Assembly: GCF_039536245.1 (NCBI RefSeq)
Contig: NZ_BAAAYN010000002.1
Location: forward strand, 87,499 to 143,263
DNA length: 55,765 nucleotides
Source: Cryptosporangium minutisporangium
Lineage (GTDB): Bacteria; Actinomycetota; Actinomycetes; Mycobacteriales; Cryptosporangiaceae
Direction: 5' to 3'
Shown here: positions 26,154 through 37,712 of the stretch, piece after piece
How the letters are laid out: each line of letters opens with the position of its first letter
Position numbering within the stretch: position 1 is the stretch's first letter
Program-made: the position numbers and the translations under genes
Notes under the pieces: generated by a model
The model's database searches: none
What the model was told of the DNA's origin: nothing
Seen by the model: only the letters and a program-made list of their open reading frames with translations

Positions 26154-26394
26154 TGCCCCACCTCCCCCGTGTTGCCCTCAGCGGCGACCTTAAGCGCAGC
26201 GTGTGGCTTTCCGGCAGGCCCGAACCCAATTCTTGAGGCAGAGATAGGGCTGGTCAGCGCCGTCTGCCCGGTTTGCCGCATAAACCCGCGGGCCGGGCGG
26301 CGACGGGAGCGCGCACGGATCGGGAGCGGTGCGGGACGGGTGCACGGGAGCGATTCGGGTCAGCCGGCAACCGTCCGGCGCCGACAGGACGGCC

Positions 26395-27672
26395 GTGACG
26401 ACGCTCCCGATGGCCCGCCGCCTCCGTACCTTCGGCGCCGCTCTGACCCTATCCGTGCTCGCCGGCGTCGGCGCCGCTCCGGTGGCGGCCGCTGCGGCGG
26501 CGGCCCCGGTCAAGACTCCGGTCGCCCCGGCGAAGCTGCCCGCCGCGATCGAGTCGCTGACCCCCTACGTCCCCCAGAGCTCCTGCGAGTGGGTCGACAA
26601 GCCCGGCGCTATCGCGTTCGGCGCGCTCCTGAAAGCCACCTACCCCGGCACGTCCTACGGCGTCACCCGGTCCTGCACCGGCACGATGGCCAGCGAGCAC
26701 TACGACGGCCGGGCCGTCGACTGGATGACCTCGATCCGTAAGCCGGCTCAGGCCGCGCAGGCCACGGCCGTACTGAACTGGCTCTTCGCCACGGACGCCG
26801 CGGGCAACGAGAACGCCAACGCCCGCCGGCTCGGCGTCATGTACATCATCTGGGACGGCAAGATCTGGGGCAGCTACAACGCGACGTGGAAGCCGTACTC
26901 CACCTGCGCGTCGCACCCGGAGGCGAGCTGGGACACCACCTGCCACCGCGACCACGTGCACTTCAGCCTGAGCTGGGCCGGCGCGATGAAGCGGACGTCG
27001 TTCTGGACCGGCGCCGTGGCGGCGAACGACTACGGGCCGTGCCGCACCGCCGACCTCAACTACGCGGCGCCTTACCAGGCTCCGAACAAGACCAAGTGCA
27101 CCTCGTACCCGACGCTCAAAGCCGCGGCCGGCTCCTCCGCCGCCTACGCGGGGCTGGTCAAGTTCTCCGGTGCGCAGCTGCAGAACGGCGCCGGTGGCAA
27201 CGCGGTGAAGGCGCTGCAGACCGCGCTCGGCGTCCCGGCGGACGGTGCGTTCGGGCCGAAGACCGGTGCCGCGATCACCGCGTTCAAGACCGCGCGCGGC
27301 CTGCCGGGCACTGCGGTGGTCGACGCCGCGACCTGGCGTGCGCTGCTCGCCGCCCTCAAGCCGGCGGCGACGGCCGGCGCCCCGAAGCCGGCGACGAAAC
27401 CGGCCACGAAGCCGGCGACCAAGCCCACCACCACGAAGCCCGCGACCACCACGAAGCCCACCAACCCGCTCACCCAGTACCGCAACACCGTGTTGAAGTA
27501 CGGCTCCAAGGGTGCGGCGGTCACCGCGCTGCAGCGTCGACTCAAGCTGCCGACGGTCACCGGCACGTTCGCGACCAAGACCCAGAACGCGGTGAAGATC
27601 TTCCAGCGGACGCACCACCTGAAGGTCACCGGCGTCGTCGATCGCACGACCTGGACCGCCCTCGGCGCCTGA
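26395..27672 (+). CDS. secreted protein with ARB_07466-like domain and two peptidoglycan-binding domains
   Basis: 425 residues from GTG 26395 (ATG 26410 possible). Signal peptide about 1-38. Residues 50-210 resemble the ARB_07466-like domain, with a peptidase-like metal pattern: His102-x6-Asp109 (SEHYDGRAVDW) and His187-x-His189 (RDHVHF). PG_binding_1 domains lie at about 254-322 and 362-425, joined by a KPAT/KPTT linker (331-358). A cell-wall hydrolase or binding protein is likely; a catalytic Glu was not identified. Followed by a 21-bp terminator. Confidence 0.85.
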   Translation: MTTLPMARRLRTFGAALTLSVLAGVGAAPVAAAAAAAPVKTPVAPAKLPAAIESLTPYVPQSSCEWVDKPGAIAFGALLKATYPGTSYGVTRSCTGTMASEHYDGRAVDWMTSIRKPAQAAQATAVLNWLFATDAAGNENANARRLGVMYIIWDGKIWGSYNATWKPYSTCASHPEASWDTTCHRDHVHFSLSWAGAMKRTSFWTGAVAANDYGPCRTADLNYAAPYQAPNKTKCTSYPTLKAAAGSSAAYAGLVKFSGAQLQNGAGGNAVKALQTALGVPADGAFGPKTGAAITAFKTARGLPGTAVVDAATWRALLAALKPAATAGAPKPATKPATKPATKPTTTKPATTTKPTNPLTQYRNTVLKYGSKGAAVTALQRRLKLPTVTGTFATKTQNAVKIFQRTHHLKVTGVVDRTTWTALGA

Positions 27673-27975: not shown

Positions 27976-28248
27976 ATGACCCCCGTGAAATCACTCACCG
28001 TCACTGACCGCACCGCCGACAGCGCAGTCACCCGGGCCACCACCGGCGCCTCCGCACCGGTCTTCGTGGACACCACCGGCCGCCGCGCCCGCTGGCTCCG
28101 CGTCCTCGCTGTCGTCGTCTGCCTGGCCTTCGCCCTCTACCTGGGCACGATGGCCAGCGGAGTGTTCGGCTCGTCGGTGGACCTTTCGACCGCGATGCCG
28201 AGCGCCTCCGCCACGGCGTCCGCGACCGCTTCGGCCGCCGCGGGCTAG
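27976..28248 (+). CDS. small single-pass protein with PVFVDTTGRR juxtamembrane motif
   Basis: 90 residues from ATG 27976 (GTG 27931 would add 15). A polar N-terminus leads to PVFVDTTGRRAR (28-39), a single membrane helix (about 41-60) and a short Ser/Ala/Thr tail. The basic block before the helix predicts N-inside topology. It lies 71 bp ahead of the deacetylase/GT2 gene on the same strand, which suggests a helper for that enzyme. Three other proteins in this window carry the motif. I know no named family. Confidence 0.75.
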   Translation: MTPVKSLTVTDRTADSAVTRATTGASAPVFVDTTGRRARWLRVLAVVVCLAFALYLGTMASGVFGSSVDLSTAMPSASATASATASAAAG

Positions 28249-28319
28249 CCCGGCCGAGCCGGGAGTGGCGGCGCGCACCGACCGCCCGCCGACCCCGGTC
28301 GGCCGACCCAAGGACTGCG

Positions 28320-30509
28320 ATGCCCCGGTCCGCCCGCCGCACGCCCAGCCCGCACGACCAGCGCCGTGGCGAACGGCGGACGCGCGGCCGGGTGCCGGTC
28401 GTCATCGTCCTTCTGGTCTTTCTGTGTGCCGTGCTCTTTCTCAACGCGATCGCCACGGCGTCCGTCGGCGCGTCCAGCACCGTGCACGAGGCCGGGAGCG
28501 CGAAGAACGTCCCGTCGGAGATCACCGGCGGCGGGCCGGTGATCGACACGACACAGGGCCGCACCACCGCGTCGTTCGCGATGAAGGCCAACACGATCGC
28601 GCTGACGTTCGACGACGGCCCCGATCCGACCTGGACCCCGAAGATCCTCGACGTGCTGAAGAAGCATGACGTCGACGCGACGTTCTTTCTGGTCGGCGCT
28701 CGCATCACCGAGGACCCGTCGATGACCAGGCGGGTCCACGACGAGGGCAACGAGGTCGGCATCCACACGTTCACCCACGCCGACATGTCCACGATCGGTG
28801 CCTGGCAACGTCGTCTGCAGTACTCCGCGACGCAGATGGCGGTGGTCGGCGCGACCGGCGACACGACGTCGCTGCTGCGCTTCCCGTACTCCTCGACTGC
28901 CGCCGCGATCGACGACACCTACTGGCCGATCATCACCGAGGCCGGCTCGCTCAACTACGTCACGGTGGTCGCGGACGTCGACGGCGAGGACTGGGCGCGC
29001 CCGGGCGTCGACGAGATCGTCGAGAACGCCACCCCCGAGGAGGGGAAGGGCGCCGTCGTGCTCATGCACGACGCGGGCGGCGACCGGAAGCAGACCGTCG
29101 AGGCGCTCGACGTCTACATCCCGAAGATGAAGGCGCTGGGCTACACGTTCACGACGCTGTCGGAGGGCATCGACTTCGGCGACGGCAGCACCGCCACCGT
29201 CCACCGCTCCGCGACCACCAGCGAACTGCTGCGGGGAAAGGCCGTGCTCTACGGCATCTGGCTGGCTCACGAATTCGTGCTGTGGTGCGCGTACCTGCTG
29301 ATCGTCGTCGGGGTCCTCACGATCGCCCGGCTCCTGCTGATGCTGCTGCTGACCTGGCGGCACCTCGCCCGGCAGCGCAGACAGCGCCGACGCGGTGGCT
29401 CGCCGCCGGTCACGCTCCCGGTCTCGGTCGTCGTGCCCGCGTACAACGAGAGCGCGGGCATCGAGGCCGCGGTCCGATCCCTGGTCGCCAGCGAGTACGT
29501 GGGACGGACGGCGGACGGAGCACCGGCGCCGGTGGAGGTCGTGGTCGTGGACGACGGGTCGACCGACGGCACCGCGAACCTCGTCGAGGCGCTCGGCCTG
29601 CCCGGGGTCCGGATCATCCGGGTGGAGAACGGGGGGAAGGCCCGCGCGCTGAACATCGGCGCGGCCGCCACCACGCACCCGATCGTCGTCATGGTGGACG
29701 GGGACACGCTGTTCGAGCCGAGTTCGATCGGCGCGCTGGCCCAGCCGTTCGCCGACGCCGGAGTCGGTGCGGTGGCCGGCAACGTCAAGGTCGGGAACCG
29801 GCGCAGCCTGCTCGGGCGCTGGCAGCACATGGAGTACGTCACCGGCTTCGCGGTGGACCGGCGCGCGTACGAGATCATGCGCTGCATGCCGACCGTGCCG
29901 GGCGCGATCGGAGCGTTCCGGCGGGAGGCGCTGGAGCAGGTGGGCGGCGTCAGCGACGACACGCTCGCCGAGGACACCGACCTGACGATGGCGCTGAGCC
30001 GGGCCGGGTGGCGCGTCGTCTACCAGGATCAGGCGCGGGCCTGGACCGAGACGCCGGCCACGATGAGCCAGCTCGCCACCCAGCGGTACCGGTGGACGTA
30101 CGGGACGATGCAAGCGATGTGGAAGCACCGCGGCGCGTTCTTCGACCGCGGGCCGTCCGGCCGGTTCGGACGCGTCGGGCTGCCGTTCTTGGCGCTGTTC
30201 GGCGTGGTCCTGCCGTTGCTCGCGCCGCTGATCGACGTCTTCCTCATCTACGGGCTGCTGTTCTACGACGCCGCGCTGACCGTGCTGGGCTGGCTGGGGA
30301 TGCTCGCGGTGCAGCTGGTCATCGCCGTGATCGCGTTCCGGCTGGACAAGGAGCCGCTGCGGCCACTGTGGGCGTTCCCGCTGCAGCAGATCGTCTACCG
30401 GCAGCTGATGTACGTCGTGCTGATCCAGTCGGTGGCCACGGCCCTGACCGGCGCACGCCTCCGCTGGCAAAAACTCCGCCGCACCGGGGACATCAGCACG
30501 GCCCGCTGA
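28320..30509 (+). CDS. bifunctional polysaccharide deacetylase / family 2 glycosyltransferase
   Basis: 729 residues. N-terminal helix (25-43), then an extracytoplasmic NodB deacetylase domain: TFDDGPD (96-102), metal ligands H149-x3-H153, RFPY and LMHD. A helix at about 318-346 leads to a cytosolic GT2 domain with PAYNES, DDGS (411-414), DGD (460-462), EDTD (551-554) and QRYRW (588-592), the processive-synthase signature. C-terminal helices follow. It probably polymerises and deacetylates an N-acetylated polysaccharide such as a glucosamine polymer. Preceded by the 90-residue motif protein. Confidence 0.92.
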   Translation: MPRSARRTPSPHDQRRGERRTRGRVPVVIVLLVFLCAVLFLNAIATASVGASSTVHEAGSAKNVPSEITGGGPVIDTTQGRTTASFAMKANTIALTFDDGPDPTWTPKILDVLKKHDVDATFFLVGARITEDPSMTRRVHDEGNEVGIHTFTHADMSTIGAWQRRLQYSATQMAVVGATGDTTSLLRFPYSSTAAAIDDTYWPIITEAGSLNYVTVVADVDGEDWARPGVDEIVENATPEEGKGAVVLMHDAGGDRKQTVEALDVYIPKMKALGYTFTTLSEGIDFGDGSTATVHRSATTSELLRGKAVLYGIWLAHEFVLWCAYLLIVVGVLTIARLLLMLLLTWRHLARQRRQRRRGGSPPVTLPVSVVVPAYNESAGIEAAVRSLVASEYVGRTADGAPAPVEVVVVDDGSTDGTANLVEALGLPGVRIIRVENGGKARALNIGAAATTHPIVVMVDGDTLFEPSSIGALAQPFADAGVGAVAGNVKVGNRRSLLGRWQHMEYVTGFAVDRRAYEIMRCMPTVPGAIGAFRREALEQVGGVSDDTLAEDTDLTMALSRAGWRVVYQDQARAWTETPATMSQLATQRYRWTYGTMQAMWKHRGAFFDRGPSGRFGRVGLPFLALFGVVLPLLAPLIDVFLIYGLLFYDAALTVLGWLGMLAVQLVIAVIAFRLDKEPLRPLWAFPLQQIVYRQLMYVVLIQSVATALTGARLRWQKLRRTGDISTAR

Positions 30510-30629
30510 GGACGACGCTGACAGCCGCGCCCTCAGCGCGCTCCGCCGCCGTTACGAATACAGGCGCGCCTGGCGGCGCTTCATCTGCCAACTGCCTCGG
30601 GCGGACGCTTGGGCGCGTGCCGCCGCTCG

Positions 30630-32501
30630 TCAGGCGGCGGTGGGGGCGAACTGGGTTTCGTATAGGGACGCGTAGAGGCCGCGCGCCGCCAGGAGTGCGG
30701 AGTGGGTGCCGCGCTCGACGATGTGGCCGTTCTCGACGACGAGGATCAGGTCGGCGTCCCGGACCGTGGAGAGCCGGTGCGCGATCACGATCGCGGTCCG
30801 ATCCGCCAGCGCCTCGTCCAGCGCCTGCTGCACCGCCCGCTCGGAGTCCGAATCCAGGTGCGCGGTCGCCTCGTCGAGGATCACCACCCCCGGCGCCTTC
30901 AGCAGGAGCCGAGCGATCGCCAGCCGCTGCTTCTCCCCGCCGGAGAGCCGGTGCCCGCGCTCCCCCACGACCGTGTCCAGCCGATCCGGCAGCGACCGGA
31001 CCAGCGGCTCGATCCGGGCTCGGCGGAGCGCGTCCCACAGCTCCTCGTCGGACGCACCGGGCCGGGCGAACAGCAGGTTCGCGCGGATCGTGTCGTGGAA
31101 GAGGTGCGCCTCCTGGGTGACGACGCCGACGGCGTCCCGCAACGACGCGGTGGTCGCGTCCCGGACGTCGACGCCGCCGATCAGCACCGCGCCGGAGTCC
31201 ACGTCGTACAGCCGCGGTACCAGCTGGCTGATCGTCGTCTTGCCGGCCCCGGAGGGTCCGACCAGTGCGACGAGCTGGCCCGGCTGCGCTGTGAAGTCGA
31301 CGTCGTGCAGCACCCGCGTCCGCGGGCTGCTGTCCAGCACCGCGACCTCCTCCAGCGAGGCGAGCGAGACCTCGTCCGCGGCCGGGTAGCTGAACGAGAC
31401 GTTCCGGAACTCGACGCTGCGCGCCCCCGGGGGTATCGGGACCGCGCCGGGCTTCTCGGTGATCATCGGCGGCAGGTCGAGCACCTCGAAGACCCGGTCG
31501 AAGCTGACCAGGGCGCTGGCGACGTCGAGTTGGACGTTGGAGAGCGCGGTCAGCGGTCCGTAGAGCCGGGTGAGCAGCAGCGCCAGGCTGACGACCGTTC
31601 CTGCGGACAGGCTTCCGGCCAGCGCCAGCCAGCCGCCGACGCCGTAGACCAGCGCGGTCGCCAGCGCCGCGACCAACGTCAGCGCGGCGAAGAACGCCCG
31701 TGAGTAGACCGCGGAGAGGATGCCGACGTCACGGACCCTGGCCGCGCGCCGGGTGAACGCCTCTTCCTCTTCCTCCGGCCGTCCGAACAGCTTGACCAGC
31801 ACCGCACCCGCGACGTTGAACCGCTCGGTCATCGTCGTGTTCATCGAGGCGTTGAGCTCGGCCGCCTCCCGGGTGATCCCGGCGAGCCGCCGTCCGACCC
31901 GCCGGGCAGGCAGTACGAAGATCGGCAGCAGGACGAGCGCGGCGGCGGTGATCTGCCAGGACAGCGTCAACATCACCGCGAGCGTGAGCACCAGCGCGAT
32001 GACGTTCGAGACCACTCCGGACAGCGTCGAGGTGAACGCGCGCTGTGCCCCGATCACGTCGTTGTTCAACCGGCTGACCAGCGCGCCGGTCTGCGTCCGG
32101 CTGAAGAACGCGACCGGCATGCGCTGGACGTGCGCGAAGACCTGGCTGCGCAGCGACAGGATGATGCCCTCACCGATCCGGGACGAGAACCAGCGTCCGA
32201 CCATCGAGAGCACGGTGTCGACCACGGCCAACCCGGCGATCACCAGCGCCACCGTGACCACCGCACTCCGCGGGCCGCCCCGGCCGATCGCGTCCACGAC
32301 CCGCCCGGCCAGCACCGGCGTCAGCACCGCGATCACCGCCGACACCACGGTCGTCGCCAGGAACACCGTGATGTCCCGGCGGTACGGGCCGGCGAAGGAC
32401 AGGATGCGCTTCGCCGTCCCGGGCGGGAGCTTCCGCTGCGTCTCGGGGCCCCCACGGCGCATCGTGCGCATCAACTGCATGGCCGCCATCGGCTCGGTCA
32501 T
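30630..32501 (-). CDS. ABC transporter, fused permease and ATPase (exporter type)
   Basis: 623 residues from ATG 32501 (GGAGG upstream). Six-helix exporter domain (about 35-335), then a nucleotide-binding domain with Walker A GPSGAGKTT, signature LSGGEKQRLAIARLLL, Walker B VVILDEATAHLD and H-loop IAHRLS. Half-transporter, probably a homodimer since no partner gene adjoins. Lipid or drug export is the family norm; the substrate is unknown. Convergent with the deacetylase/GT2 gene. Confidence 0.93.
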   Translation of the reverse strand: MTEPMAAMQLMRTMRRGGPETQRKLPPGTAKRILSFAGPYRRDITVFLATTVVSAVIAVLTPVLAGRVVDAIGRGGPRSAVVTVALVIAGLAVVDTVLSMVGRWFSSRIGEGIILSLRSQVFAHVQRMPVAFFSRTQTGALVSRLNNDVIGAQRAFTSTLSGVVSNVIALVLTLAVMLTLSWQITAAALVLLPIFVLPARRVGRRLAGITREAAELNASMNTTMTERFNVAGAVLVKLFGRPEEEEEAFTRRAARVRDVGILSAVYSRAFFAALTLVAALATALVYGVGGWLALAGSLSAGTVVSLALLLTRLYGPLTALSNVQLDVASALVSFDRVFEVLDLPPMITEKPGAVPIPPGARSVEFRNVSFSYPAADEVSLASLEEVAVLDSSPRTRVLHDVDFTAQPGQLVALVGPSGAGKTTISQLVPRLYDVDSGAVLIGGVDVRDATTASLRDAVGVVTQEAHLFHDTIRANLLFARPGASDEELWDALRRARIEPLVRSLPDRLDTVVGERGHRLSGGEKQRLAIARLLLKAPGVVILDEATAHLDSDSERAVQQALDEALADRTAIVIAHRLSTVRDADLILVVENGHIVERGTHSALLAARGLYASLYETQFAPTAA

Positions 32502-32619
32502 CGGGCGCCACCTCCGGCTCTGTCATACAGCACGGCCTCCGGCTGGGTGCAACGCTGTAATCACCTCCGCTGTTCCGCCGCGGGGCTCCGGGCTTCACCC
32601 CCACTGGCAGGATGGGGCC

Positions 32620-33405
32620 GTGCGCCTGGCGACTTGGAACGTGAACTCGGTGACTGCGCGGCTCCCGCGGCTGCTCGACTGGCTCGCGACCACGAAGCCG
32701 GACGTCGTCTGCCTGCAGGAGATCAAGTGCAGCGCCGAGGCGTTCCCGGCCGCAGCGGTGGCCGAGCTCGGTTACGAGACCGCGGCCCACGGCGACGGAC
32801 GCTGGAACGGGGTCGCGCTGCTCTCCAAGGTGGGCCTGGACGCGGTGACCCGCGGGCTGGTCGACCAACCCGGCTTCCCCGACCCGGAACCTCGGGCCAT
32901 CGGCGCGACCTGCGGCGGCGTCCGGATCTGGTCGGTCTACGTGCCGAACGGCCGCGAGCCAGGCCACGCGCACTACGCCTACAAGCTGGCGTGGCTGACG
33001 GCGCTGCGGAACACCGTCGCCGCCGAGTTGGGGCCGGCGCCGTTCGTCGTCGCGGGCGATTTCAACGTGGCCCCCACCGACGACGACGTCTGGGACCCGG
33101 CCGCGTTCGTCGGCGCCACGCACGTCACGCCGCCCGAGCGGGAGGCGCTGGCCTCGCTGCGCGAGGCCGGTCTGGTCGACGTCGTGCCGCGACCGCTGAA
33201 GTACGACCACCCGTTCACGTACTGGGACTACCGCGCGGGAGCGTTCCCGAAGAACCTCGGCATGCGCATCGACCTGTTCTATGCCGACGCCGCCCTCGCG
33301 GCCACCGTCAGCGACGCCTACGTCGACCGGGACGCCCGCAAGGGCAAGACTCCCTCCGACCACGCGCCGATCGTGGTCGACGTCGCTCAGTCCGTGGTCG
33401 CGTAG
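32620..33405 (+). CDS. xth: exodeoxyribonuclease III
   Basis: 261 residues from GTG 32620 (AGGATGGGG upstream); the open frame runs further 5' but without family character. AP endonuclease/exonuclease III motifs: LATWNVNSV, LQEIKC, GDFNVAPTDDDVWDP, and the catalytic SDHAPIV at the end. Repairs abasic sites in DNA. Its end overlaps the convergent hydratase gene by 19 bp. Confidence 0.95.
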   Translation: MRLATWNVNSVTARLPRLLDWLATTKPDVVCLQEIKCSAEAFPAAAVAELGYETAAHGDGRWNGVALLSKVGLDAVTRGLVDQPGFPDPEPRAIGATCGGVRIWSVYVPNGREPGHAHYAYKLAWLTALRNTVAAELGPAPFVVAGDFNVAPTDDDVWDPAAFVGATHVTPPEREALASLREAGLVDVVPRPLKYDHPFTYWDYRAGAFPKNLGMRIDLFYADAALAATVSDAYVDRDARKGKTPSDHAPIVVDVAQSVVA

Positions 33406-34154
33406 CGGTCGTCGAGGCGGCGGGCGAACGACTCGCGTTCCGCGGCTGCCTGTTCGCATGGGGTTCGCTGCGGTGCTCCGGCGAGCAGCGCCTTGGTCTC
33501 GGCGAGCGCCGCGCGGTCGGCGGAGAGCAGGTCGGCGACGAACGCGTCGGTGACCGCGGTCAGCTCGGCCTCCGGCACCGCCCGGGACGCCAGCCCGAGC
33601 CGCTCGGCCTCGGCCGCACCGACCCGCCGACCGGTCAGGCACAGTTCGGTCGCGCGCCCGGCACCGACCAGGTCGACCAGGCGGCCGGTGGTTCCGAGGA
33701 CCGGCGCCGCTTCGCTGCGCCCCCCGGTCAGCGCGAACGACGCGTCGGTAGCGACCAGCCGTAGGTCGCAGCAGAGCGCGAGTTCGACGGCGACGCCGGC
33801 CAGCGGACCCCGTGCGGTGGCCACCGAGACGACGTCCGCCCGGCGGAGCCACCCCACCGCGGCCTGGTAGGAGGCCAGTACGGAATCCCGCTCCTCGTCC
33901 GAGAGCGACGCCAGCCGAGCCGAGACACTGCCCGTAGTGCTCGGATCACTCTGGGAACTCGACCCGGCGAGTTCGAGCACGACCACCCGAACGTCACCGG
34001 TCAGATCCGCTCCGATCCGAGCGAGTTTCTCCAGCGTCCGCACCGTTGTGTCGCCGAACCGACCGAGCGGCCCGACGACGACGGTGAGTACCCCCTGCCG
34101 GTCGCGCCGCAGCTGCGGCACAACCCACTCGTCAGTACTGTCCGCCCAGGTCAC
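33387..34154 (-). CDS. enoyl-CoA hydratase/isomerase family protein
   Basis: 255 residues from GTG 34154 (GGGGAG upstream at about 8 nt); the frame is open to 34319 but the extra N-terminus is Arg-rich noise. The crotonase core is visible: oxyanion-hole ARGPLAGVAVELALCCDLRLV and SFALTGGRSEAAPVLGTT. The usual catalytic Glu positions are not both obvious, so the reaction is uncertain. M. tuberculosis also has an enoyl-CoA hydratase (echA12) near the ABC-F gene. Confidence 0.83.
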   Translation of the reverse strand: MTWADSTDEWVVPQLRRDRQGVLTVVVGPLGRFGDTTVRTLEKLARIGADLTGDVRVVVLELAGSSSQSDPSTTGSVSARLASLSDEERDSVLASYQAAVGWLRRADVVSVATARGPLAGVAVELALCCDLRLVATDASFALTGGRSEAAPVLGTTGRLVDLVGAGRATELCLTGRRVGAAEAERLGLASRAVPEAELTAVTDAFVADLLSADRAALAETKALLAGAPQRTPCEQAAAERESFARRLDDRYATTD

Positions 34155-34323
34155 CTGGGTACTCCCCGGCTCCAGCCGAGCCCCATCGGTACCCCGCCCC
34201 CTCTGCGTCCGGCCTTCGTGTCCGAGCCTACGCACCGCGCGGACGTATCGAACGTTCGGCGGTAACAGGGGCCGAACGGACCGAACTCTCACCTCCAGAT
34301 CGTGAGTCGCTCGCGGCACGCCT

Positions 34324-34329
34324 TACCCT
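34324..34329 (+). promoter_or_regulatory. -10 element (TACCCT) of a leaderless promoter
   Basis: 7 nt from ATG 34337. Confidence 0.45.
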
Positions 34330-34336
34330 GAAAGCC

Positions 34337-35941
34337 ATGGCTTCCGGCTACCGGTATGACGACTCCCGCCCGAACGGCGGGACGTACGACCCTCCCCGCG
34401 GCGCGGATCCTGACGCGACGGCCTACCGCCGGCCCCGCGGCGGCGAAGGTGACGGCTACCGCGAGGGTGGCCACCGTCCGAACCCGGAGCCAACCAGGGC
34501 GCCCCAGCCACCGCGCGCGCCGGAGCCCCGCGGGGCGTACGAGAACGACGGCGGCGCCTACCGCGACCCGGCCTCGTTCGACGACTACAACGACCGGGCC
34601 GGCTACGGCGGCTACGAGAACGACCGCGGGCGCCGCGGCGACGACCGGTACGACGAGCGACGGTCCGGCCGGTACGACGAGCGCGACCCCGGATACGGGG
34701 CCTCCTACGACGACCGCGCCTCCTACGACGACCGGGCCAACTACGACGACCGGGCCCCCCACGCCGACCGGGCCCCCCACGCCGACCGGGCCTCCTACGA
34801 CGAGCGGGCCAACTACGACGACCGGGGCCGTCGCGGTGACGACCGCCGCGGGTACGACGACCGCGCCGCCTACGACGACCGGGGCTACGACCGGCCGGTC
34901 GGCTACGAGCAGGATCGGCGCAGCGACCGGCGACCGGACGGCCGTGGGTACGACGACCGCGCCGGCTATGACGGCCGGGGTTACGACCGCCGGGGCGGCT
35001 ACGACGATCGGGACGAGCCGGGACAGGAGACCCGGCGGGTCCGGCCCGAGGAGCTCGGCCTGCCCGCGTTGAACCGGCGGGGGGCCCAGGGGCCGTCCGA
35101 CGCGGAGACGAGCATCATCCCCGCGGCCCGCCCACCGGCCGACGGTCCGCCGCCGCGCCGTGAGCCGCCGCCGCCCGAAATGGACTCCGAGTCCACGATG
35201 CTGTTACCGAGAGCAACTGACCGCTCACCCCTGGATCGTGCGCTGCGCGATCAGGACAGCGAACAGACGCAGATGTTCGTGCCGCGTCCACCGGCGGGCG
35301 CGGCCGGTGGTCCGCCGCCGGGGCTCGCCGGGACCCGCGTCGGCGGTCCGCCGCCCCCCGACGCCGCAACCCAGATGATCCGCCGCCCCGAGGATCTGCC
35401 CCGGATCGACGTCCCGGGCATGCCCGCCGGCAGCGACGATCAGGCGACCCAGATGTTCGCCCGCCCGGACGACCTCGGGCGGCCGGTGTTCGTCGACAGC
35501 AGCGGCAAGCGGCAGCGGGGTCTGAAGATCGTTCTGGCCCTGGTCGGCATCATCGGGCTGCTGTTCCTGATCGGCGTCATCGTCAGCCTCACCACCGGGG
35601 CCGGGCCGGACGTCATGCGCGGCACGTTCGGCGAGCAGGACGACAAGACCCCGACGCCGGTGCAACCGTCGACGAACGAGACCCCGCCGACGACCCGTCC
35701 CTCGGCCTCGAGCACGGACGGTCCCGACGCGCAGAACAGCCGCGAGCCGCAGCGGTCCACCGGCCCGTCCCGCTCGGCGGCGGCCCCGCCGCCGGCCGAG
35801 GAAGAGCCGGTGGAGCCGACTCGCCGGCCTACGCGGTCCCCCGATCCGGAGCCGAGCGACGACGAGCCCGGCGGCAACACGCCGACGCCGACCGGCAACG
35901 CGACCGCCAGCAGCAATCCGCCCCCAGGCGGCGGCAACTGA
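34337..35941 (+). CDS. disordered single-pass protein with YDDR repeats, five Thr motifs and PVFVDSSGKR
   Basis: 534 residues. About 60-235 is a Tyr/Asp/Arg-rich repeat region (YDDR, YDER, ADRA units). Then come five similar motifs with Thr258, Thr287, Thr311, Thr345 and Thr371, each acidic before the Thr and hydrophobic at +2/+3 (TSII, TMLL, TQMF, TQMI, TQMF). PVFVDSSGKRQR (383-394) precedes a membrane helix (about 398-420), and a Pro/Thr/Ser tail ends the protein outside. It looks like a scaffold phosphorylated by Ser/Thr kinases and read by FHA domains; this is inference. Confidence 0.8.
   Translation: MASGYRYDDSRPNGGTYDPPRGADPDATAYRRPRGGEGDGYREGGHRPNPEPTRAPQPPRAPEPRGAYENDGGAYRDPASFDDYNDRAGYGGYENDRGRRGDDRYDERRSGRYDERDPGYGASYDDRASYDDRANYDDRAPHADRAPHADRASYDERANYDDRGRRGDDRRGYDDRAAYDDRGYDRPVGYEQDRRSDRRPDGRGYDDRAGYDGRGYDRRGGYDDRDEPGQETRRVRPEELGLPALNRRGAQGPSDAETSIIPAARPPADGPPPRREPPPPEMDSESTMLLPRATDRSPLDRALRDQDSEQTQMFVPRPPAGAAGGPPPGLAGTRVGGPPPPDAATQMIRRPEDLPRIDVPGMPAGSDDQATQMFARPDDLGRPVFVDSSGKRQRGLKIVLALVGIIGLLFLIGVIVSLTTGAGPDVMRGTFGEQDDKTPTPVQPSTNETPPTTRPSASSTDGPDAQNSREPQRSTGPSRSAAAPPPAEEEPVEPTRRPTRSPDPEPSDDEPGGNTPTPTGNATASSNPPPGGGN
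34690..35010 (+). repeat. degenerate YDDR-coding repeats
   Basis: Repeated TACGACGACCGG-like units with GCC/AAC spacers, including a duplicated 18-bp piece at about 34757-34792 (CCCCACGCCGACCGGGCC twice). All keep the reading frame. Confidence 0.8.
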
Positions 35942-36040
35942 GCACGGACTACTTGGGGCACCACTATTGCCCCCAGAATTAAGAATTGTTGAAGTAGGAC
36001 ATTTCCGTTACAGGGATGGTTAGCCCAGTCCCGTTCCCTT

Positions 36041-36046
36041 TAGCCT
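36041..36046 (+). promoter_or_regulatory. -10 element (TAGCCT) of a leaderless promoter
   Basis: 6 nt from ATG 36053. Confidence 0.45.
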
Positions 36047-36052
36047 GTGCAC

Positions 36053-36907
36053 ATGGCTCTCGTCCGTACAGACGACGCCACAGGCGTCACTCCCGCGTTC
36101 TGGACTCCCTCGATCACCAAGGCCGCCGAGGACGGCGAGGTTCCCGAGTCCACGGACGCGACAGCGGTATTACCGGATTCGGCGACCGCGGAACGGCCAG
36201 AATCGCCGGCCTCCTCCGGCCCTCCGGGGGCCCCGTCGACGGCGCCGGAGGGCGATACCCCGGGAACCACCCACGCGGCCGCCAGCGACGACCCCACGCC
36301 CCTGCGTAGCGCCCCCGAGTCCGACGCCGCGCCGAGCGGCACCTCGGGATCGCCTGTGCAGACCGAAGCGGGCCAGGAAGCGTCGGCGGACAGCACCGCC
36401 GATACCCAGCTGCTGCGCCAGGTCGCCGACGCCGACGCCCCGGTGTTCCTCGACACGACCGGCCGACGCCGACGCCGGTTACGCGCCCTGGTCTGGCTCG
36501 TCGGTCTCGCCGGACTCACCTACGCCACCATCCTGGTCGTCAGCCTGCTCGGTGGGCACAGCACCCAGTCGCTGACCGCCGCCCCGGAGTTCCGTCCCGG
36601 CGAGAAGCAGTCCCCGCCGGCCACCGCGGCACCAGTGGCCACCACAGAAGCCGAACTGGCCCGCCCGACCGACGCGGCCGTCGACCCCAGACCGACGGCG
36701 CGGGCCACGGCGGACGGTCCCGCGACGAGCCCGGCCGCCCGCTCACCCCAACCGGGTCGCAGCGGCAGCCAGGCGGCGCGTTCCCCGTCGGCCGCTCCGA
36801 CGGCGAGTGCACCCACGCCTTCCGCGTCCGCGGCCGTACCCACTCCGTCGCCGAGCGCCGGGGTCCTCGACGGACTCGTCGACACGCTGTTCCCGTGGGC
36901 GTCGTGA
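36053..36907 (+). CDS. single-pass protein with PVFLDTTGRRRRR juxtamembrane motif
   Basis: 284 residues from ATG 36053; the upstream in-frame GTG 36047 abuts the -10 element and is unlikely. A long acidic Ser/Pro/Thr-rich cytosolic part (1-125) leads to PVFLDTTGRRRRR (130-142), one helix (about 147-167) and a Pro/Ser/Ala-rich outer tail. No enzymatic domain. Belongs to the same motif family as the proteins at 27976, 34337 and 37131. Function unknown. Confidence 0.75.
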   Translation: MALVRTDDATGVTPAFWTPSITKAAEDGEVPESTDATAVLPDSATAERPESPASSGPPGAPSTAPEGDTPGTTHAAASDDPTPLRSAPESDAAPSGTSGSPVQTEAGQEASADSTADTQLLRQVADADAPVFLDTTGRRRRRLRALVWLVGLAGLTYATILVVSLLGGHSTQSLTAAPEFRPGEKQSPPATAAPVATTEAELARPTDAAVDPRPTARATADGPATSPAARSPQPGRSGSQAARSPSAAPTASAPTPSASAAVPTPSPSAGVLDGLVDTLFPWAS

Positions 36908-37118
36908 CCAGCGGAAGTAACCAGTCGCGATTGGCCGGTCACTCTTCGTGATCAAGGGAGAGGCCGCGTCAGCGAATCACTGTGAGTTACCTGATAGTCG
37001 GATTCTATACAGCGCCTCGGATTCGCCCGACTTACCGCGAAATGACCTACCCTTCTGTCCGGATAGCACTCCAAATGTAAATAACTGAGCGTGACATAAG
37101 GCGTCACCGATGGGTCTT

Positions 37119-37124
37119 TAGTCT
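37119..37124 (+). promoter_or_regulatory. -10 element (TAGTCT) of a leaderless promoter
   Basis: 6 nt from GTG 37131, at the end of an AT-richer 200-bp stretch. Confidence 0.45.
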
Positions 37125-37130
37125 CGAAGC

Positions 37131-37712
37131 GTGAACACTGTCGCTCCCCACGACGTCACGCAGAGTCTCGAACCGATCGGCGCCGACGAGCTCGGCTCCG
37201 CGTCGCCCGTCTTCGTCGACACGAGCGGCCGCCGGCGACGCCGGGTACGCGTCGTCGCCGGCTTCGTCTCCGCGTGCTGCCTGCTCTACACCGGACTGCT
37301 GGCCTTCAGCTTGCTCACCGGCGGCTCGGTCAGTCTGAACACCCTGTTCCCGGACGGGGAGGCGGCCGCCGCCACCCAGACCTCGTCAGCGCCGAGCGCC
37401 GCCGCGTCGGAGACCGAGAGCCTGTCGCGGACGACCACGTCGTCACAGAGTGGTGGTTCGACCACTACGGACAGTGTCTTGGCGCCGAGCGTGGCTCCGA
37501 GCTCGGTCGCCACGGTGAAGCCCTCGACCGGCGCGACGACGGCCCCGGCCGTACCGACGACGGCGCCGACCACCGCCCCGACCACGGTGCCGACCGCCGC
37601 GCCGACGACCACCGCGCCCACCACCGCGCCGACGTCTGCGCCCACTACGGCACCCAGCACCGCTCCCATCGCGGAAGCACCGGGCACCGGCGCGGGGGCC
37701 ACGGCTCCGTAG
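37131..37712 (+). CDS. single-pass protein with PVFVDTSGRRRRR juxtamembrane motif
   Basis: 193 residues from GTG 37131. Short cytosolic N-terminus, PVFVDTSGRRRRR (26-38), a helix at about 41-63, then a tail of TTAP/TTVP/TSAP repeats (about 130-185) that looks like a wall-spanning, possibly O-glycosylated stalk. Same architecture as the other three family members; function unknown. Followed by a terminator shared with the convergent ABC-F gene. Confidence 0.75.
   Translation: MNTVAPHDVTQSLEPIGADELGSASPVFVDTSGRRRRRVRVVAGFVSACCLLYTGLLAFSLLTGGSVSLNTLFPDGEAAAATQTSSAPSAAASETESLSRTTTSSQSGGSTTTDSVLAPSVAPSSVATVKPSTGATTAPAVPTTAPTTAPTTVPTAAPTTTAPTTAPTSAPTTAPSTAPIAEAPGTGAGATAP

Follow-up and report, generated by a model that had tools for sequence, protein, structure and literature searches.

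A conserved block ahead of a single membrane helix forms the core of MatA and links it to deacetylase-glycosyltransferase synthases

The mat genes of Streptomyces were found through a non-pelleting mutant, and the passages of PMC4391728 drawn on here place the published locus two genes from ftsEX, describe overlapping matA and matB genes in S. lividans, and report that the PM02 mutant regained pellets with matA alone. In S. lividans, the signal for poly-N-acetylglucosamine (PNAG) was lost in the absence of matA, matB, or both, with only background left without matA, and MatA (SCO2963/SLI_3306a) is described as lacking known domains in the relevant part of PMC5972031. In S. coelicolor, SCO2963 is glycosylated, with one predicted helix and no signal peptide predicted, according to the portion of PMC6593405 that concerns this protein. 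Here, we analyze a stretch of 55,765 nucleotides from Cryptosporangium minutisporangium (the window; contig C2, positions 87499-143263, of a 9.23 Mb genome in 152 contigs) and find that a short block shared by four of its proteins makes up the core of MatA, which pairs with MatB, a synthase that joins a CE4 polysaccharide deacetylase to a family 2 glycosyltransferase (GT2). The four proteins and MatB are arranged as follows.

27976-28248, + strand: MatA proper (copy 1), 90 aa, directly upstream of MatB; block 28057-28092, helix about 28102-28158.
28320-30509, + strand: MatB, CE4 polysaccharide deacetylase plus family 2 glycosyltransferase, 729 aa; Pfam PF01522 and PF13641/PF00535.
34337-35941, + strand: MatA-like orphan copy 2, 534 aa, with a long Tyr/Asp/Arg-rich inner tail; block 35483-35518, helix about 35528-35584.
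36053-36907, + strand: MatA-like orphan copy 3, 284 aa; block 36440-36475, helix about 36485-36541, DTQLL at 36401-36415.
37131-37712, + strand: MatA-like orphan copy 4, 193 aa; block 37206-37241, helix about 37251-37307, DVTQSLEP at 37152-37175.

In all four proteins the block, P-V-F-[VL]-D-x-x-G-[RK]-R, directly precedes one helix, and every reading frame, block, and helix of the original prediction was found in place. On a simple hydropathy scale, each protein has exactly one helix, beginning 15 residues past the first proline of the block, and by composition count Ser, Thr, Pro, and Ala account for 55-89% of the outer tails, as had been predicted. The proteins are predicted to lie with the N-terminus inside and the Ser/Thr/Pro-rich tail outside, an arrangement with which the glycosylation and single helix of SCO2963 agree. 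The claim that they are unrelated beyond the block does not hold: similarity extends past it into the helix, and three of the four carry, 12-16 residues ahead of it, a second cytosolic element, absent from the original prediction, in which an acidic residue and Thr are followed by hydrophobic residues. This element is present in strict form in copies 2 and 3 and only in a looser form in copy 4, and is missing from copy 1. Separately, the inner tail of copy 2 contains Tyr-Asp-Asp-Arg low-complexity repeats (34400-35080) whose length differs among genus-mates.

The block had been thought to belong to no named family; it belongs to a gene already known, matA. A profile built from the cores of the four window proteins returned these same four at E 5e-25 to 2e-26 in the host genome and recovered a fifth, independent copy (G000:C43:156555) at E 2.3e-8, with the next best match no better than 0.088. 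Copy 1 and this fifth copy each lie directly upstream of a deacetylase/GT2 gene on the same strand, the fifth preceding a second such gene. The genes at 34337, 36053, and 37131 have no CE4-GT2 fusion directly downstream, and for this reason we name them MatA-like only. Between the copy 1 stop (28248) and the called matB start (28320) there is a gap of 71 nt, and stop and start do not overlap. With a larger profile of 25 rows, all five host copies, which are themselves among the rows, score 1.4e-15 or better, and a sixth match (8.6e-4) lacks the block. Searched as a DNA pattern, the block has 7 matches in the host genome and 0 when reversed; two of the 7 (C6, C23) are non-members by profile. 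The window copies share the block with the Streptomyces-like loci L164 and L173, with their relatives L166-L176, and with the named Streptomyces plasmid records L251 and L252, where it lies upstream of the synthase. In L164 and L173, with gene names taken from our reading of the translations, the order is ftsE, ftsX, two genes, matA, matB, and because this order matches the published locus, we take the two genomes as Streptomyces.

The original prediction had proposed a role in surface polysaccharide or envelope assembly, and the pairing of MatA with MatB across genomes strongly supports it. Among the best 80 of 326 MatB relatives from named genomes, the block lies upstream of MatB in 74 loci by pattern and in 76 by profile, with exactly one MatA match in each of the 76; the four loci without MatA all start close to a contig end, at 90, 197, 115, and 430 nt. 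In a class sample of 148 genomes (thresholds E 1e-3 for MatA and E 1e-60 for MatB), all 22 genomes with MatB have a MatA match. MatA matches occur in 27 genomes, 5 of them without MatB (four weak matches and G152), and 121 genomes have neither. Nor is the block confined to one genome: there are 27 strong MatA places (E 1e-6) outside the host, 2 of them at contig ends, and a synthase lies downstream in 22 of the other 25, leaving orphan forms in 3. Eight weaker places include three with a synthase; G037, G155, and G105:C14 have none, and we rejected these three as members, their sequences being without the block, and G094 and G124 belong to genomes with no MatB in the E 1e-60 listing. Across an order sample of 200 genomes, MatA matches at E 1e-6 occur in 32, and a deacetylase follows in 21 of 22 further order-level loci, the remaining locus lying at a contig end. 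Among 246 genomes drawn from the phylum, no MatA match lay outside the class.

Within this family, the position of the block relative to the helix is not random: on the same simple scale, a helix is called between block and stop in 122 of 139 relatives (one helix in 120, two in 2, and none in the remaining 17), followed by an outer tail with a median length of 121 residues and 72% Ser/Thr/Pro/Ala/Gly. The reading frames of MatA and MatB differ in all 75 loci compared (offset +2 in 59 and +1 in 16), which fits a stop/start overlap; reading both through as one frame was rejected accordingly (0/75 in frame), and none of 173 loci checked has the MatA block and the synthase in one open frame. In nine hand-picked Streptomyces-like loci, two MatA types pair with two MatB types.

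The block also occurs inside synthases. From 26 plasmid synthase records we read 18, comprising 16 fused forms and 2 split Streptomyces forms (six Sphingobium records, one from S. indolifex, and one partial Sphingomonas record were left out), and in all 16 fused synthases the block or a recognizable variant, with a hydrophobic stretch after it, lies close to the N-terminal end of the deacetylase chain. They come from Pseudomonadota, Deinococcota, Bacteroidota, and the actinomycete Kocuria rosea, and in the alphaproteobacterial plasmid synthases both features lie in the synthase's own reading frame. Twelve of the 16 match the block pattern; that of Novosphingobium RL4 (PVFFDPTGNRR) and the more divergent ones of Deinococcus, Limimaricola, and Prevotella were recognized by eye. 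In both synthases for which helices were counted, the fused block precedes the only helix before the deacetylase. A MatA profile built without any fused form, with the search size set to 16 and reversed sequences as the control, scores 13 of the 16 at E below 0.01 and none of the reversed ones (best 0.26). One Sulfitobacter record annotates separate genes for the deacetylase and the GT2, and there only the deacetylase carries the fused block. The occurrence of the block fused in some phyla and separate in others is classical evidence that the two parts act together, and given the fused block in all 16 plasmid synthases, MatA looks like a detached synthase module. This link between fused synthases and MatA is new here. 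A single branch (100/100; root unknown, two fused rows long) in a tree of 35 synthases separates the 26 split forms from the 9 fused ones. This is most simply read as a single fission or a single fusion, with a separate helix either acquired or retained by split MatB. The block probably began as a control piece of the synthase that was detached and then copied.

A search for Kocuria-type fusions in 246 genomes of the class matched 31 genomes, and none of the 30 loci fetched had block and synthase in one open frame; 25 of these have MatA in the flank, 2 reach a contig end, and 3 have MatA further upstream. The Kocuria plasmid is the only fused actinomycete form we saw, and no relative of the fused synthase was found in phages and viral contigs. 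Two observations concern the fused records themselves. The annotated starts of two synthases seem too late, falling downstream of an in-frame block in Sulfitobacter (L255 2520-2860) and inside the block in Kocuria (L265 2665), and a DUF3131-annotated gene follows the fused synthase in seven alphaproteobacterial plasmid records (L255, L260, L262, L263, L264, L267, and L268).

A different view, contained in the original prediction, is that the block acts as a sorting signal for otherwise unrelated proteins, that is, as a general inner-face targeting signal, for instance to hyphal tips or septa, which these proteins borrowed. The three window copies without an adjoining synthase would suit such a role, as would the location of matAB near ftsEX reported in the cited portion of PMC4391728, but the synthase next to 22 of the 25 evaluable strong matches and the presence of the block in cis within the synthases of other phyla, the latter seen in a search biased by its start from the synthase, make it quite improbable. 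We instead propose, with a probability of roughly 0.75, that block and helix form an N-terminal anchor module of CE4/GT2 hexosamine-polymer synthases that is supplied in trans by MatA. In several phyla the module would be part of the synthase chain, and in Actinomycetes that have it, it would usually be a separate protein, MatA, encoded just before MatB. The cytosolic block could rest on the GT2 of MatB, or on its channel, at the inner face; the MatA helix could pack alongside those of MatB, and the Ser/Thr/Pro-rich outer tail could extend into the wall, such that MatA would be needed for polymer synthesis or export. Physical contact between MatA and MatB is accordingly something we would expect from this arrangement. 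In the genus, the module would have been copied further, with one MatA serving the local MatB and the three tandem copies without a synthase acting as alternative or regulatory subunits.

Several points weigh against the anchor module. Copies 2-4, the L159-L161 group, G045, G091:C14, and G152 have no adjoining deacetylase/GT2 gene, and some loci are loosely coupled, such as L060, with 720 nt from the MatA stop to the deacetylase match against a median of 165. With the MatA profile, the N-termini of Limimaricola, Prevotella, and one Sulfitobacter synthase do not fall below E 0.01, and accepting them depended in part on visual inspection; when four fused forms are added to the profile, all 16 fall below 0.01, but one reversed control does as well, at 0.0056. 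The search that recovered the fused forms started from the synthase and has fusions to other proteins outside its view. Split MatB retains its own helix before the deacetylase, a first helix that in the window protein (residues 27-45) carries no block, and simple fission does not explain this anatomy. The correlation between MatA-core and GT2 distances (r 0.857 over 100 pairs; permuted maximum 0.255), which in itself speaks for the module, still includes the shared species tree. Finally, deletion of matA led to small pellets, a weaker effect than that of the double mutant, in the experiments taken from PMC4391728.

In MatB and its relatives, the GT2 motifs DDG, DxD, ED, and QRYRW and the CE4 motifs DD and HxxxH are invariant across 30 aligned synthases, and we take these residues to be catalytic. 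In the Protein Data Bank (PDB), MatB matches CE4 deacetylases, a GT2, and hyaluronan synthase. Its best NCBIfam match is PgaC_IcaA, at 167.1 bits against an equivalog cut-off of 422.3; the enzyme type suggests that the host may produce PNAG, with MatB well under that cut-off. Just upstream of matA, the gene at 26329-27672 reads as a secreted protein with peptidoglycan-binding-like repeats and occupies the same place in three genus-mates.

The resemblance of MatB to PgaC raises the question of whether MatA is a one-helix counterpart of the polymerization subunit PgaD/IcaD, unrelated to it in sequence. PgaD and IcaD have two helices. MatA has one, and as members of the PgaD or IcaD family the MatA proteins were rejected, with neither family among their Pfam and NCBIfam matches; the fused forms, moreover, suggest kinship with the synthase's own N-terminus. 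These observations leave the idea doubtful, although MatA is likewise a small membrane partner of a synthase with a PgaC/IcaA-like GT2 and a comparison with IcaD is put forward in the part of PMC5972031 cited. Other family names fared no better. For the window MatA proteins, Pfam and NCBIfam offered only DUF3040, under the cut-off, and fragments of the MatA core gave weak matches to CU044_5270 (E 0.0003 at best, 13 of 25 members) and DUF4244 (E 0.0024, 1 of 25), which we read as a resemblance of basic residues plus a helix and did not accept. Seven of eight longer MatA proteins matched nothing in the family libraries, and L159 had only matches far under the cut-off. A PDB search with MatA gave no believable match (two receptor matches, E about 0.5), and a search of the open-access literature, in which motifs are rarely spelled out in the text, for the PVFVD block with Streptomyces and for follow-up work on MatA found nothing on the block.

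The orphan copies 2-4 are kept in the same order and orientation in all three genus-mates searched. Synteny extends to the neighboring genes (by our reading a nuclease gene, an ABC-F gene, and one resembling enoyl-CoA hydratase), and block, helix, and Thr motif are conserved while the tails vary. A tree of 50 columns, too few for deep forks, places copies 1, 2, and 3 each with its own orthologues, and copy 4 and its orthologues fall in a group that also holds copy 1. The absence of a synthase of their own and the large variation in tail length could be taken to mean that the three copies are decaying, functionless duplicates, but their retention in three genus-mates, together with the grouping by orthologue as far as so short a tree allows, makes this very improbable. 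The orphans may be alternative or regulatory subunits, and our guess is that they feed the same MatB; a separate role for the three is also conceivable. Other orphan forms are known from further genomes. The L159-L161 proteins form an additional subfamily (AIF[VL]D..GRR) at an unlinked locus of three genus-mates, with no deacetylase/GT2 gene in the 11-12 kb fetched. G045 (L163) and G152 (L177) look like Streptomyces-like MatA of the second type left after loss of MatB, and L171 (G091:C14), from a Streptomyces-like genome, is a MatA form whose 15 kb of fetched surroundings hold no synthase. The surroundings of L159-L161 read as a GTPase/sensor cluster plus a substrate-binding protein.

The cytosolic element ahead of the block can be defined as an acidic residue, Thr, any residue, and two hydrophobic residues, mostly 10-12 residues before the block; Thr stands at this distance in 85 of 126 match positions, with overlapping matches counted. 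The strict motif occurs in 70 of 121 inner tails, against a mean of 7.7 and a maximum of 16 in shuffled tails, 9 for the reversed motif, and 2 for a version with Ser. Among non-redundant inner tails, the count is 30 of 74 (shuffle maximum 9, reversed 1, Ser 2). In a larger set, it is found in 76 of 139 inner tails and is nearly absent from outer tails (0 of 133 in the first 45 residues, 3 of 133 over the whole tail). By group, it is present in 59 of 75 tails of L021-L100, 9 of 18 in the genus, and 7 of 29 remaining loci. Streptomyces type 1 tails have it in strict form in 0 of 7 and in loose form in 7 of 7, and type 2 tails in 0 of 7 by either. Short islands persist where tails have diverged: EVT[VI][QR]LD is kept in 6 of 7 Streptomyces-like tails, and the genus retains DDQATQ[ML]F, DTQ.L (copy 3), and D[VI]TQ[SR]LEP (copy 4). 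Copy 2 has several such stretches.

35099-35458, + strand: five acidic-Thr-x-hydrophobic-hydrophobic stretches in copy 2, starting at 35099, 35183, 35255, 35360, and 35435.

Its orthologues in three genus-mates have four, five, and four. In L088 and other Micromonospora MatA proteins, tandem D.PTVV-like repeats stand before the block, suggesting multiplied Thr sites; L088 has 806 open codons upstream.

Other biofilm synthases are turned on or off by cyclic di-GMP (c-di-GMP). The motif raises the tentative possibility of an analogous phospho-switch, in which Ser/Thr kinases would phosphorylate the inner tail and a forkhead-associated (FHA) protein or the GT2 would read the mark and set the synthase on or off; the orphan copies would be extra inputs, copy 2 a multi-site one. 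Such a switch would add to the anchor module and would not replace it, and if true, it would be a Ser/Thr-kinase analogue of the control of biofilm polysaccharide by c-di-GMP. In its favor are the enrichment of the motif over shuffled, reversed, and Ser versions, its near absence from outer tails, and the resemblance of the conserved Thr islands to mycobacterial phosphopeptides, among which the relevant section of PMC4322841 lists those of GarA (DEVTVETTSVFR) and Rv0822c (QQDTEAIAIPA), with a preference for acidic residues described in the corresponding part of PMC6554272. The motif thus appears similar to the sites of actinobacterial Thr kinases, a lead, not proof, and MatA may be phosphorylated there. 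On the other hand, the open-access literature yielded no MatA phosphorylation data, the strict motif is not universal, being absent from copy 1 and both Streptomyces types, many tails are related by descent and their counts are not independent events, and the alternating hydrophobic residues could equally form a strand docking on a partner. A broader scheme, which we consider doubtful, would make MatA a control module freed by fission, with a kinase-readable inner tail, a block that gates the GT2, and a glycosylated outer tail, amplified into interchangeable inputs for one synthase.

Of the original interpretation, then, the link to envelope polysaccharide stands, and the sorting signal and the absence of a known family do not. 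MatA is required for PNAG and for pellets in Streptomyces, which matter for industrial fermentation (PMC5972031 and PMC4391728, in the portions cited). The block gives MatA a definable core, relates it to the single-chain synthases of four phyla, and singles out testable residues; the Thr motif is a possible route by which kinases could set hyphal stickiness, and the orphan copies raise the question of whether one synthase takes several regulators.

Compared with described systems, the Thr motif of MatA resembles the phospho-Thr motifs of the GarA/OdhI type in its acidic residues, Thr, and following hydrophobic residues (as given in the cited parts of PMC4322841 and PMC12321487), although the MatA proteins scanned have no Pfam domain and hence no FHA domain. 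IcaD and PgaD are likewise small membrane partners of a PgaC/IcaA-type synthase and are not among the MatA profile matches. The single-chain CE4-GT2 synthases on plasmids of Novosphingobium, Sphingomonas, Sphingobium, Sulfitobacter, Limimaricola, Deinococcus, Prevotella, and Kocuria have the same block or a variant of it and the hydrophobic stretch; they differ in that the block is in cis, with no separate MatA in the stretches read, and of four proteins scanned, one has a passing GH18 domain. Unlike Streptomyces MatA, copy 1 is only 90 aa long and is separated from matB by a gap instead of overlapping it, and copies 2-4 are without matB. Nevertheless, Streptomyces MatA, like copy 1, lies directly upstream of a CE4-GT2 fusion and has one helix, and the syntenic loci and the plasmid records L251 and L252 carry the block, with SCO2963 itself compared by its description.

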